Shown: positions 6,953-19,774 of the stretch, piece after piece
How positions within the stretch are numbered: position 1 is the first letter of the stretch
Layout of the letters: each line of letters opens with the position of its first letter
Source: a virus
Virus record (IMG/VR): IMGVR_UViG_3300017779_000233
Location: 1-20,168 of that record
DNA length: 20,168 nucleotides
Direction: 5' to 3' (one strand)
Program-made: the position numbers and the translations under genes
Notes under the pieces: model-generated
Seen by the model: the letters and a program-made list of their open reading frames with translations, nothing else
What the model was told of the DNA's origin: nothing
Databases searched by the model: none

Positions 6953-9061
6953 TTAATTATGCTTATACCTTCTGAAAAACTTAGACTCCTTAAAATCAGA
7001 CACTTTCTTTTTTGACTTAACCTTTTGAGCAGCAAGCAGACAAAGCCCAGAGCTAATCGTCAGGTCAAACTTGGTTCTGTTGTCAATTTTGTATCCAATC
7101 CAGTCCTCTAGGGTTCTGTTAAAATACATCTTTCCAATTTCACCAGTTTCGTGATTCGCGCCCACGTGGTCATGCACGTATGCCTCAATAGCATGAGCAT
7201 GAGCTTGAATGACATCTTGAGAGTTGGAAGGAATTCCCTTTGTCTTTACGTTCACCTTCGCAGAGGTAGACATTAGGTGTCTGGGTCTGTCCATAAGGTA
7301 CCCATCGTAACCCCTTGATTCAAAGTATCTTGCGATGCCATACTTGTTGTTTTCTATGAGTATTGGATACCCATAAAACACGGCAGCCTTTAACACATCC
7401 TCGTAAAAGATTTTAGCCAAAGGTGGACGGGACGCATACTCCAGCACGAACATGTTCGATGGATGCTCCATGTGAAACTTATTGTACAGGTGTAGCGCTC
7501 CTTTCGACCCCCGTCCGTCGACGGTGGCGTCAAGGTCGTAGGAGTCAACCCCGCCTACCCCCAGCTCTGCATTGGGTGCAACGCGCTTGTTTCGTAAAAA
7601 CTTCTTTTGATTTCTCACCTCTGGAGGAGGCATCCAAGCAACATGAAATCTACCGTTCGGATCTGGAGCAAATACAACCTCTGTATCTTTCTCTCCGTTC
7701 TTCCAAACGAAATTTCCGACGACGACAGGATTTGGAAACAACTCGTCGTTGTACTGGACTTGCTCGTAAATTTTACCGACATTAAAAAGGCTCCCTTCAA
7801 TACTATCCCTAAATGCCTCGTCTGTGGTAAAGGGAAACTGCCTGACAATTTCATTCATCTCAGAGGCATCATGCTTCAGAGCCTCTCTTTCATTTTTGAG
7901 ATAAGTACGGGCTCCGAGCTCAACATCTACACCATCAATGCCCTCAACAGGAGATTCAGGGTCTTCGTGTACGGCCCTCCCGTGCTTATCAAAAAAGCCC
8001 TCCAGCGCCATATCAGCGGGAATAAAGAGTCGGTAGAGTCCTGATCTAGTCCTCCCATTCTTGTTCCTTTCGTCTGGGTCTGAATCCCTCCAAAGGTCTT
8101 TGTACTCTTTTCCTCCTTTGTCCATCGGATTGACGGTGCTTCCCACCATTGCTTTTCCGACGATTTTTCGCCCGACGATCAAACAAGTCCGTTGAATCCT
8201 CCAGGCGTCCCTTATGTCTGTAGGTCTTTCCCATTTACCAGCTTCGTCCAGATAGAGCAAATGTAGCTTTTCTCCATCATAGGCGTTGTTGGTAGTGTTC
8301 TTCCAGTTTATGACCGTATTAAGAGCCTCGCCCGTCTGCGTAGTCTTATTGTTCTTCGTGATTCTCTTAGACGGCTCGCGAAAAGCCAGCTCCATGCGCG
8401 GATTGGTCGTTCCATCCTGAATAGGTTTGAAGAAGAAGGGGTAGTGCCTGAACATCTGCACGACCTTCTTCATGAATATATTCTCTTGGGCGTCCTTACC
8501 AGTCTTTGACTGTATCCCCAAGAGCTTGTCTTTGACTTGTGTGGCTTCGTCTAGAAGCACAGCAGAGCAGATATTGGTATATCCACTCCGCCTACATTTA
8601 GTATACAGCTGCCCGATACATCGGGGGTCCGCCTCACACGCAGACAAATGTACGAAAATTTCTCTTTGAAACTCTAAGTAGTCTGGATACCCGATATCCA
8701 TTCGGGTCCATTGAAGCATCATGTAATGCCTGCCCGTAATATATGTAGGGACACCGTCGTTATAGAACCAAAAGCCTTCACGCCGACGGCGAAACTCCTC
8801 CTCGACATACGGACGAAACTTTTCTCTAAAGGGCCTGGGCATCTCGGCCCACTCATCCATACTCTTAATCCGAAGCATTTCCTCAGGCATAGGAACCCTT
8901 TCCCACAGCTGCAGGTGGTTTGGCTTTCCATATCCCGCAATTTTCGTTTTGGGAGGCTGAGCGGGAAGTGCAATGTCCAGCCCACCGATTCGAACAATTT
9001 CTCCTTTCGTACCGTTGGGGCAAATTGCGACAAAGTCCTCAACATCAGTAGACTTGGCCAT
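6953..9061 (-). CDS. terL: Terminase large subunit, 702 aa
   Basis: The ATP-driven DNA packaging motor and headful/termini nuclease. N-terminal region: GFWFYNDGVPTYITGRHYMMLQW (about 96-118), a conserved segment in this terminase group. ATPase: a degenerate Walker A at YTKCRRSGYTN (153-163), where Arg-Ser replaces the usual Gly-Lys; Walker B LHLLYLDEAG (266-275, Asp272 Glu273); coupling motif GSTVN (307-311). Nuclease: GGVDSYDLD (503-511), ILIENN (567-572) and an acidic residue in FDLTISSGL near 676 give the RNase H-type Asp/Glu/Asp set. The start overlaps the preceding 61-aa gene by 17 nt. The terminase-then-portal order and the length fit crAss-like or related Bacteroidota phages. No obvious small terminase is adjacent. 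Confidence 0.95.
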   Translation of the reverse strand: MAKSTDVEDFVAICPNGTKGEIVRIGGLDIALPAQPPKTKIAGYGKPNHLQLWERVPMPEEMLRIKSMDEWAEMPRPFREKFRPYVEEEFRRRREGFWFYNDGVPTYITGRHYMMLQWTRMDIGYPDYLEFQREIFVHLSACEADPRCIGQLYTKCRRSGYTNICSAVLLDEATQVKDKLLGIQSKTGKDAQENIFMKKVVQMFRHYPFFFKPIQDGTTNPRMELAFREPSKRITKNNKTTQTGEALNTVINWKNTTNNAYDGEKLHLLYLDEAGKWERPTDIRDAWRIQRTCLIVGRKIVGKAMVGSTVNPMDKGGKEYKDLWRDSDPDERNKNGRTRSGLYRLFIPADMALEGFFDKHGRAVHEDPESPVEGIDGVDVELGARTYLKNEREALKHDASEMNEIVRQFPFTTDEAFRDSIEGSLFNVGKIYEQVQYNDELFPNPVVVGNFVWKNGEKDTEVVFAPDPNGRFHVAWMPPPEVRNQKKFLRNKRVAPNAELGVGGVDSYDLDATVDGRGSKGALHLYNKFHMEHPSNMFVLEYASRPPLAKIFYEDVLKAAVFYGYPILIENNKYGIARYFESRGYDGYLMDRPRHLMSTSAKVNVKTKGIPSNSQDVIQAHAHAIEAYVHDHVGANHETGEIGKMYFNRTLEDWIGYKIDNRTKFDLTISSGLCLLAAQKVKSKKKVSDFKESKFFRRYKHN

Positions 9062-9250: not shown

Positions 9251-9324
9251 TACGCCTGACAGGATTCGAACCTGTGACCGTCTGCTTAGAAGGCAGATGC
9301 TCTATCCAACTGAGCTACAGGCGC
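9251..9324 (-). tRNA. tRNA-Arg (anticodon UCU)
   Basis: Canonical cloverleaf on the minus strand. Acceptor GCGCCTG pairs with CAGGCGT (one G-T pair), followed by an A discriminator. D-arm is GCTCAGTTGGATAGAGC. Anticodon loop CTTCTAA carries TCT at 9290-9288. T-arm is CAGGTTCGAATCCTG. CCA is not encoded. It reads AGA codons, which the Arg-rich late proteins use. It lies between two short late genes. Confidence 0.95.
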
Positions 9325-17576: not shown

Positions 17577-17839
17577 CCGATTATTTCCTTTATATCCTCC
17601 AACAGTAATGAGGCCATTTTTGTCTTGATCACAATAACATCGCGAAGTTATAAAACAATTTTTTAAAAGTCAACCGTCAAGTGACTGTTCATGTAACGTC
17701 GCTTACGGTATTGATAATGAGTTAGTTATATTATTTGACCTGTCTCAAGGCAAATTAAGGACTGAATTAAGATCCGTCGAAAAAAGGGATGAGATATGTA
17801 CACCGTGGGGATTATATACATACACAGCCACCCGCAAAC

Positions 17840-18175
17840 GCAATCCGAAACGGATTGCCACGACCTCCCCCCTGCACTTTAGTGCAGTTTTTGCTACAAC
17901 TTTCAGCTTTTTGCCTGACTTTCAGTCAGTTAGCCTTGGTTAGTTCAAGCACAGCTTGAGACTAACTTTGCAGGCGCAGTGCTCCGAAGGAGAGGACAAT
18001 CCCCCCTGTAACTCAAGGAGTTACAAACATGACCCCACTACTGGGGCTTCACTGAACACCCTTTCAAGGTCTTGACCTTGACTTGATTTGAGTTGGCAGT
18101 CCCTTCACGCAGTACCCTACGAGTCAACAAGTTGACCCTGCGGTACCTCGACCTTTACTCTAACTCGTTAGAGTA
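17840..18175 (+). repeat. Array of ten unrelated short hairpins in non-coding DNA
   Basis: Hairpins, arm-loop-arm: 17840 GCAATCCG-AAA-CGGATTGC; 17872 CTGCAC-TTTA-GTGCAG; 17915 CTGACT-TTC-AGTCAG; 17939-17966 a 12-bp stem with one bulge (GTTAGT TCAAGC-ACA-GCTTGA); 17982 CTCC-GAA-GGAG; 18007 TGTAACTC-AAG-GAGTTACA; 18033 CCCCA-CTAC-TGGGG; 18064 TCAAGGT-CTTG-ACCTTGA; 18123 GTCAAC-AA-GTTGAC inside CGCAG/CTGCG; 18156 TACTCTAA-CTCG-TTAGAGTA. The spacing is about 25-57 bases. Arm sequences differ from each other; only the architecture repeats. Confidence 0.85.
17872..17892 (+). terminator. Hairpin plus T-tract, possible terminator
   Basis: CTGCAC-TTTA-GTGCAG followed at once by TTTTTG. It has the form of a weak intrinsic terminator on the plus strand, but it is also one member of the hairpin array and no plus-strand gene ends before it. 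Confidence 0.3.
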
Positions 18176-18191
18176 CTTCGGCAGAAAAGTA

Positions 18192-18245
18192 GAGATATGT
18201 ATTAGAATGAAAGAAACCTATGGTTTCATTCTAATACATTATCTC
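18192..18245 (+). promoter_or_regulatory. Long leader hairpin before the 169-aa gene
   Basis: GAGATA pairs with TATCTC (18240-18245). TGTATTAGAATGAAA (18198-18212) pairs perfectly with 18224-18238, and an inner AAACC/GGTTT offers an alternative top. About 21 bp in total with one bulge. The ATG follows 7 nt later at 18253. It would form a strong 5' leader structure on the message. Confidence 0.8.
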
Positions 18246-18252
18246 ATAAACC

Positions 18253-18762
18253 ATGACAAACTTCCAATTTTCCGACTGCAAGAAAGCGGTCAACCAAGCC
18301 CTCTTCCGTCCAACCGCAGACCGCAAGGCCGCCGCAATCAAAGCTTTGCAAGAAGCTTTGGAGTTGGTCACTAACCTCGAAGAGGTTAAAGACAAGCCGA
18401 AGGCTTCCAAGACGAAGAAGCGTCGTCGTAAGACGACGAAGAGGACACCTTCACAGAAGGTGGCAGACCGCCAAGAGATGGCCAACAAGACCAACGAAGT
18501 TGGTCCAGTCAAGCCTTCGAAGAAGGCTAAGACAGCTTCCGTTAAGGAAGCTAAGGCATCTCTGAAAGAGATGGATGCCAAGAACAAGGCGAAGAAGCAA
18601 TCGAAGATTGAAGCCAAGAAGGTAGCTATGGGGGTCAACGAAGTTGACAGAGTAGCTTCCTTGGAAGCTAAGATTGAGGCCTTGACGCAGTGCTTGGCCA
18701 TGCACATGGAGACTACGTCTCTCCCTTCTGCTATCGAAGATAGCAATAATGTCCCCTTCTAA
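18253..18762 (+). CDS. Lys/Ala-rich basic protein, 169 aa, encoded by hairpin-filled sequence
   Basis: ATG at 18253 (MTNFQFSDCKKAVNQALF) with no Shine-Dalgarno, 7 nt after a 21-bp hairpin. Residues 1-46 look helical (RKAAAIKALQEALELVTNLEEV). Residues 47-125 are Lys/Ala/Thr/Ser-rich with KTKKRRRKTTKRTPSQK, resembling histone H1-like tails. Residues 130-155 form a short coiled coil (VDRVASLEAKIEALTQCLAM). No enzyme motif is present. DNA or RNA binding is likely from charge. The coding sequence contains about 14 short hairpins in different reading frames, so part of the amino-acid composition may be dictated by nucleic-acid structure. It is the first gene of the rightward block, probably early. 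Confidence 0.75.
   Translation: MTNFQFSDCKKAVNQALFRPTADRKAAAIKALQEALELVTNLEEVKDKPKASKTKKRRRKTTKRTPSQKVADRQEMANKTNEVGPVKPSKKAKTASVKEAKASLKEMDAKNKAKKQSKIEAKKVAMGVNEVDRVASLEAKIEALTQCLAMHMETTSLPSAIEDSNNVPF
18339..18745 (+). repeat. Array of about 14 short hairpins inside a coding sequence
   Basis: Arm-loop-arm: 18339 CAAAGCTT-6nt-AAGCTTTG; 18372 TAACCTC-GAA-GAGGTTA; 18394 AAGCC-GAA-GGCTT; 18421 CGTCGTC-GTAA-GACGACG; 18446 CACCTTC-ACA-GAAGGTG; 18489 GACCAAC-GAA-GTTGGTC; 18512 AGCCTTC-GAA-GAAGGCT; 18534 AGCTTCC-GTTAA-GGAAGCT; 18557 CATCTCT-GAA-AGAGATG; 18598 CAATC-GAA-GATTG; 18634 GTCAAC-GAA-GTTGAC; 18653 TAGCTTC-CTTG-GAAGCTA; 18709 GAGAC-TAC-GTCTC; 18729 TGCTATC-GAA-GATAGCA. All are perfect. GAA loops are closed by C-G in seven of eight. 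The loops fall in two different codon phases. Confidence 0.9.
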
Positions 18763-18773
18763 TCGTTCTAGTA

Positions 18774-18821
18774 TCTCTTACTACACACTCTCTTCATTTA
18801 TGAAGAGTGTGTAGTTAGAGA
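18774..18821 (+). promoter_or_regulatory. Long leader hairpin before the 46-aa gene
   Basis: TCTCT/AGAGA, a T-T mismatch, then ACTACACAC (18780-18788) with GTGTGTAGT (18807-18815), a 2-nt TC bulge, TCTTCA/TGAAGA and a TTTA loop. About 20 bp. It begins 11 nt after the preceding stop, so it could act as terminator-like 3' end protection, leader, or both. No T tract follows. Confidence 0.8.
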
Positions 18822-18839
18822 GACTTACCACTCAAAATT

Positions 18840-18850
18840 TCAAACTTCAA
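18840..18850 (+). promoter_or_regulatory. TCAAACTTCAA leader element, copy 1
   Basis: The 11-mer ends 11 nt before the ATG at 18862. Identical copies stand 10 and 11 nt before the ATGs at 19083 and 19797, and a copy with one change stands before 20048. No Shine-Dalgarno is present at these genes, so the element may serve start-site choice or promoter function. Confidence 0.6.
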
Positions 18851-19609: not shown

Positions 19610-19705
19610 ATGGGTAAACGATTAAAGCAAAACGTTAACCTCGCGTTCATCGCATTCCTTGCATGGATGGGTGGGTTGTTGACTCTGGTTGCTCTGCTCA
19701 ACTAA
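19610..19705 (+). CDS. Tiny single-pass membrane protein, 31 aa
   Basis: ATG at 19610 to TAA at 19705, 3 nt after the preceding stop. The first eight residues (MGKRLKQN) are basic. The rest (LAFIAFLAWMGGLLTLVALL) is one hydrophobic helix, so an N-in inner-membrane peptide is expected. Small membrane peptides in early phage regions can block superinfection or act on the host envelope, but nothing specific is shown here. Confidence 0.55.
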   Translation: MGKRLKQNVNLAFIAFLAWMGGLLTLVALLN

Positions 19706-19709
19706 TATA

Positions 19710-19769
19710 GAGAGTTACGTATATATACTCTCTGAACAGAGTGAAGAGAGTATATATACTTAACCTCTC
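19710..19769 (+). promoter_or_regulatory. Long leader hairpin before the 83-aa gene
   Basis: GTATATATACTCTCT (19719-19733) pairs perfectly with 19745-19759. Outside it, GAGAGTTA (19710-19717) pairs with TAAC(C)TCTC (19761-19769) around a C-T mismatch and a bulged C. About 23 bp in total. The top can refold as CTCTG-AA-CAGAG (19730-19741), so two conformations compete. Confidence 0.85.
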
Positions 19770-19774
19770 ATACT

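Follow-up and report, generated by a model that had tools for sequence, protein, structure and literature searches.

What kind of element is a dense run of short inverted repeats that crosses from non-coding DNA into a gene, and what keeps its arms paired? The question arises in a 20.2-kb piece of a marine phage (IMG/VR virus record IMGVR_UViG_3300017779_000233), of which all 20,168 nucleotides were analyzed and are referred to below as the window. The terminase of this phage is most like those of the Flavobacterium elemo phages and Cellulophaga phages and bears a distant likeness to those of crAss-like phages. Structural genes occupy the - strand, with a tRNA gene among them (9251-9324, - strand), small genes occupy the + strand, and the hairpin zone sits where these two gene arms diverge. 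A host search in 84,980 bacterial and archaeal genomes returned no match.

Hairpin counts and the boundaries of the zone

The initial annotation described a continuous array of hairpins at 17840-18822 that passes from non-coding into coding DNA, and counting confirmed it. With loops of 2-4 nt, the segment 17830-18830 contains 23 non-overlapping perfect hairpins with arms of at least 5 bp (3.1 in dinucleotide shuffles, maximum 10), 19 with arms of at least 6 bp (0.84, maximum 6) and 14 with arms of at least 7 bp (0.21, maximum 2). The earlier tally of 7-bp hairpins within the gene, five with GAA loops (18372, 18489, 18512, 18557, 18729) and one with ACA (18446), was exact. Permuting synonymous codons, which holds both protein and codon usage constant, did not reproduce the array: the coding part has 8 hairpins with arms of at least 7 bp, against 0.43 (maximum 3) in the permutations. 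The remaining 17.8 kb of the window shows no excess at arms of at least 6 bp (12 vs 12.0). In the 64.7-kb contig G004, whose ends are bridged by contig G001, 18 hairpins fall in the peak kilobase and about 1 per kb elsewhere, so that each genome has one array locus. The array has no match in Rfam. It is real, far above chance and conserved. The features of the zone are as follows, in window coordinates, with the strand given where one is assigned.

17805..17821, +: single-copy motif GTGGGGATTATATACAT, marks the abrupt left edge of the zone and resembles a promoter or an origin; conserved in relatives
17840..17858: leader hairpin, 8-bp arms, loop AAA; relatives differ in the arms, with compensating changes
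17872..17887: leader hairpin, 7-bp arms, loop TT
17915..17929: leader hairpin, 6-bp arms, loop TTC
17945..17959: leader hairpin, 6-bp arms, loop ACA
18007..18025: leader hairpin, 8-bp arms, loop AAG; AGT or ACT (mutual reverse complements) in relatives, on the same inner arms
18064..18081: leader hairpin, 8-bp arms, loop TT
18123..18136: leader hairpin, 6-bp arms, loop AA
18156..18175: leader hairpin, 9-bp arms, loop TC
18197..18239: long intergenic hairpin ahead of the gene, 16-bp perfect arms
18253..18762, +: gene that opens the zone, coding for a basic protein of 169 aa (net charge +16) without known family
18339..18360: coding hairpin, 8-bp arms, 6-nt loop
18372..18388: coding hairpin, 7-bp arms, loop GAA
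18421..18438: coding hairpin, 7-bp arms, loop GTAA
18446..18462: coding hairpin, 7-bp arms, loop ACA
18489..18505: coding hairpin, 7-bp arms, loop GAA; almost unchanged among relatives
18512..18528: coding hairpin, 7-bp arms, loop GAA, inverted to TTC in L028 and L031
18534..18552: coding hairpin, 7-bp arms, loop GTTAA
18557..18573: coding hairpin, 7-bp arms, loop GAA
18598..18610: coding hairpin, 5-bp arms, loop GAA
18634..18648: coding hairpin GTCAAC GAA GTTGAC (V-N-E-V-D); GTCAGT GAA ACTGAC (V-S-E-T-D) in L002
18653..18670: coding hairpin, 8-bp arms, loop TT
18729..18745: coding hairpin TGCTATC GAA GATAGCA (A-I-E-D-S); TGCTAAC GAA GTTAGCA (A-N-E-V-S) in relatives
18770..18825: long intergenic hairpin, 22-nt arms that are 91% complementary; recurs in similar form elsewhere in the genome
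19012..19062, +: type I ribozyme, hammerhead-like, conserved across the group; outside the array

The array has an abrupt left boundary at GTGGGGATTATATATAT (window 17805), a single-copy motif, and opens 35 bases to the right of it. One good match to this motif (0-1 mismatches) is present per genome in the window, G001 and G004. Relatives were gathered in two sets. The first comprises 31 viral contigs that encode a protein related to the 169-aa protein; the second, obtained by means of a distant relative, comprises 12. All 31 contigs of the first set carry a dense array at the gene, and so do nearly all of the second. Across the loci of the first set the number of hairpins per 250 bp is 0.3 to the left of the motif, jumps to about 4 there, stays at 3-6 across the first kilobase to its right, and is back at the background level by about 2.25 kb. 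The edge and the decay were repeated in 11 of the 12 contigs of the second set, those showing the motif, with fewer hairpins in L146. The limits first drawn for the array need correcting: 17840-18822 is dense, the left anchor is the motif at 17805, and on the right the array of relatives continues into downstream genes, fading by about 2 kb. Two outer structures (18197-18239 and 18770-18825) turned out to be part of longer intergenic hairpins. Such hairpins, of about 20 bp, stand immediately before start codons at both sites and at about 19705-19770. The sequence at 18767-18850 recurs in several copies in G004 and G001 at 85-92% identity.

Is the array a property of the gene or of the place? 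The zone of L095 begins with a gene for an acidic protein (net charge -14) unrelated to the window protein, and this gene is filled with 11 hairpins, against 0.95 under synonymous permutation, while terminase (TerL), portal, primase and other genes have no excess. The array is thus set by position and not by gene, and the zone is defined by its place relative to the motif. Only a few hairpins are present in L123, which retains the motif as well as a relative of the gene; an array is thus not an obligatory feature. Lys, Ala and Glu are abundant in the window protein, and repeats of such composition might be thought to yield palindromes by chance; this coding artefact, to which we give practically no credence, is refuted by the synonymous permutation, by the non-coding half of the array and by the unrelated acidic gene that is equally filled.

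The group of marine phages bearing the array is large, with at least 600 matches in a TerL scan; the isolated relatives elemoA, phi18:3, phi40:1 and ctfjg026 are without it. The 169-aa protein is basic, with a predicted C-terminal helix and a structure model (pTM 0.29) that is confident only for an N-terminal helical hairpin at residues 1-40. It has no relative among protein families, PDB sequences or Foldseek matches, and its gene has no homolog in phage records. A linear element, GGACAATCCC, is conserved between leader hairpins (for example at about 17993-18002 of the window) and is present even in L123. Start codons lie within array hairpins (TTCATC TAC GATGAA and others) at the first gene and at following genes in L028, L029, L033, L036, L048 and others. 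The array gene of L055 (about 8001-8700) is present in two tandem copies with hairpins in each. The contigs of L038, L049, L050 and L051 stop within the array gene, possibly through assembly breaks at hairpins or variable sequence.

Hairpin design and covariation among relatives

Array hairpins obey narrow design rules. Those of the leader with 5-bp arms occur at the background level (0.89 vs 0.98 per kb), arms of 6, 7 and 8 bp exceed background there 17-, 46- and 350-fold, and arms of 9 bp or more are rare. Loops are of 2-3 nt, predominantly 3 nt, and the closing pair is pyrimidine-purine in 96% of array hairpins compared with 56% of background hairpins. Apart from this closing-pair rule, arms and loops vary freely; hairpin positions are retained across relatives.

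The variation preserves pairing. Among 21 distinct coding sequences, 71 cells were changed on both sides with pairing kept, compared with 29.6 in shuffles (0 of 500 reached the observed value) and 16-28 when the structures were slid along the sequence as a control. Close comparisons of the leader gave 23 compensated pairs out of 24 changed, and change rates there were highest in loops (0.30), lower in linkers (0.17) and lowest in arms (0.09). Some compensated coding changes alter amino acids, as in A-I-E-D-S to A-N-E-V-S and V-N-E-V-D to V-S-E-T-D. Single changes without compensation are common in coding hairpins, in part because hairpins give way to others in a shifted register. Overall, shuffles and compensation in relatives bear out the earlier proposal that only the design is conserved, with structure as the target of either selection or a mutational process.

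Compensation of this kind could also arise without any function. If synthesis from the motif were prone to template switching over the first 1-2 kb, inverted repeats would be both created and repaired, and the hairpins may do nothing. Such an origin would fit a leader nearly devoid of uncompensated intermediates, a decay in one direction from a fixed point, and the loop inversions GAA/TTC, AGT/ACT and TATG/CATA on identical inner arms. Loop inversion is a known signature of template switching (PMC8604942, PMC8794818), marked in yeast by GAA/TTC (PMC8604942). Like the inverted repeats described there, the array shows homogenized arms, inverted loops including GAA to TTC and, in the leader, coupled two-arm changes that lack intermediates (coding hairpins less so); those repeats, however, are scattered single events (PMC8604942, PMC8794818), whereas the array is dense, confined to one locus and strict in size. 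The sharp lower limit of 6 bp and the upper limit near 8 bp, the hairpin positions kept among relatives, the scarcity of hairpins beside the motif of L123 and the modest excess of loop inversions (19 vs 11.8, p = 0.024) all speak against a mutational by-product. The size limits and the retained positions indicate selection, and template switching may keep the arms perfect; we regard a purely mutational account as a serious rival, though rather unlikely.

Wobble pairs, loops and the choice between DNA and RNA

Selection on structure could act on DNA or on RNA. An RNA stem is expected to tolerate G-U. Among about 2300 pairs of near-perfect hairpins, G-T mismatches (7) and A-C mismatches (8) were found in similar numbers, and single changes in coding hairpins gave 45 G-T and 67 A-C. 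Leader triloops of the G-N-A or T-N-C type number 44 where 20.4 are expected, with each strand enriched separately, and the nine leader tetraloops include neither GNRA nor UNCG. G-N-A triloops form unusually stable DNA mini-hairpins. The promoter loop of phage N4 contains such a sheared G-A pair (PMC4496689). Given that G-T does not outnumber A-C and that both strands show an excess of G-N-A loops, we infer that the selected form is DNA rather than RNA. The suggestion of the initial annotation that RNA beads protect the message is weakened by the same wobble counts and by leader loops that are not RNA-type tetraloops.

Other features are shared by both forms. Stem III of the hammerhead-like sequences, presumably an RNA hairpin, likewise has a pyrimidine-purine closing pair and often triloops, so these two traits cannot separate DNA from RNA, and the wobble and loop-type tests are the only ones speaking for DNA. 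The hammerhead set contains 25 G-U pairs and is a weak control, as these lie mostly in one conserved column and the search itself allowed G-U. These type I ribozyme-like sequences usually lie about 750 bp past the start of the array gene, right before the leader of the next gene; their stems covary, and they score 23 bits, below the Rfam cut-off of 34 bits. They were found in L012, L018, L019, L021, L027-L029, L032, L034, L036, L037, L039, L040, L042, L045-L048, L071 and L126, and also in L083, L092, L107, elemoA (L024) and phi18:3 (L137).

A role in RNA would mean folding within the first early transcript, with the hairpins as beads that might bind a phage protein, prevent R-loops or protect the message; the basic protein encoded in the zone could be the binder, as in the N/boxB pair. 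An edge at a promoter-like motif with decay only rightward, conserved hammerhead-like RNA elements on the same strand, the likeness of array hairpins to hammerhead stem III and a window protein that is basic with predicted helices are all in keeping with such a role. The lack of preference for wobble, the absence of GNRA and UNCG from leader tetraloops, the T-N-C loops favored in the leader on the + strand, the start codons inside hairpins of several relatives and the acidic product of the first gene in L095 (net charge -14) are harder to reconcile with it. We consider a function at the RNA level unlikely, though it deserves serious consideration.

Possible roles and related systems

Our tentative preference, held with somewhat less than even confidence, is for a zone of DNA mini-hairpins selected for shape beside an early promoter or replication origin, in which template switching possibly keeps the arms perfect. 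Judging from the sequences compared here, it is conceivable, if short of probable, that genes within about 2 kb of the motif have been rewritten, amino acids included, into mini-hairpins of 6-8 bp that form a DNA-shape cis zone; that these serve replication or early transcription belongs to the same reading and is proposed just as cautiously. Over 1-2 kb from one fixed motif per genome, short perfect inverted repeats would be selected for shape and not for sequence. The strands would separate at the motif or immediately to its right, at the start of replication or in early transcription under negative supercoiling, and each repeat on the opened strand would snap into a compact DNA hairpin. As a cis site without sequence requirements, the array would either be read by a hairpin-recognizing protein or keep the opened strand compact and free of SSB, and template switching would probably help the arms to stay perfect.

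The origin or promoter role, and a protein that reads the array, are our guess. We would place the zone at a replication start where the two gene arms join. The site has an origin-type layout, with a single-copy motif and an AT-rich stretch, and this placing draws on layout only, given that a search of the array phages for a Bac_DnaA domain found none. A sigma-70 scan found nothing at the motif, and GC skew, mostly accounted for by gene direction, gives no origin position. Against a reading in terms of DNA, the motif, the transcribed direction and the same-strand hammerhead-like sequences also fit a role in RNA, and few hairpins accompany the motif in L123 and L146.

Several known systems resemble the array in part. 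The lambda boxB/N pair and G4-type single-strand origins have hairpins of defined sequence, in one to three copies, by early promoters or origins; the array similarly lies beside an early promoter-like or origin-like site but has many copies of undefined sequence. The early-promoter DNA hairpins of N4, in the early region of a podovirus, leave many stem bases free if pairing is kept, and occur in three copies with conserved stem and loop bases (around -11) that are read by a giant T7-like polymerase (PMC4496689). Array hairpins likewise have short stems (6-8 bp) and mostly 3-nt loops, whereas their arms and loops lack conserved bases beyond the closing-pair rule. Hairpin promoters for an injected RNA polymerase, with stems of 5-7 bp and 3-nt loops extruded by gyrase, would accordingly match the array in hairpin size, loop size and early location (PMC4496689). 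We nevertheless think them very improbable here, as there are about 20 copies, some in genes, with stem bases that are not conserved, a search for the T7-like RNA polymerase family (run without a positive control) gave no match, and the giant internal protein matches LPD38 and not a polymerase. A crAss-type polymerase was also rejected, D.D.D motif matches in two giant proteins lying in unconvincing contexts.

Perfect inverted repeats of up to 284 bp are found within protein genes of Nematomorpha mitochondria (PMC6649704). As in those genes, palindromes of the array represent a compromise between structure and protein; unlike them, they are of a fixed size class (6-8 bp) and lie in a single zone anchored at the motif. 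TIGR arrays, which carry box C/D motifs and spacers along with a Tas protein that has a Nop domain (PMC12045711), are similar in being tandem palindromes of variable sequence in phages, and were rejected on the absence of the Nop domain from G004 and G001 (controls positive). A search for repeats longer than 2-3 bases found no repeated family inside the array.

A literature search of open-access papers yielded no matching published system. The array is a cis element that secondary structure by itself defines and that is powerful enough to dictate the sequence of proteins; present across a large group of marine phages, it offers a natural system for asking whether DNA hairpins form in cells. 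It also bears on how replication or early transcription starts in these phages and on how selection and template switching share the upkeep of perfect palindromes. The LPD38 polyvalent-protein domain lies in a 2801-aa protein of G004 (39614-48019), which has kin in Stx phages and Vibrio podoviruses and is probably injected.
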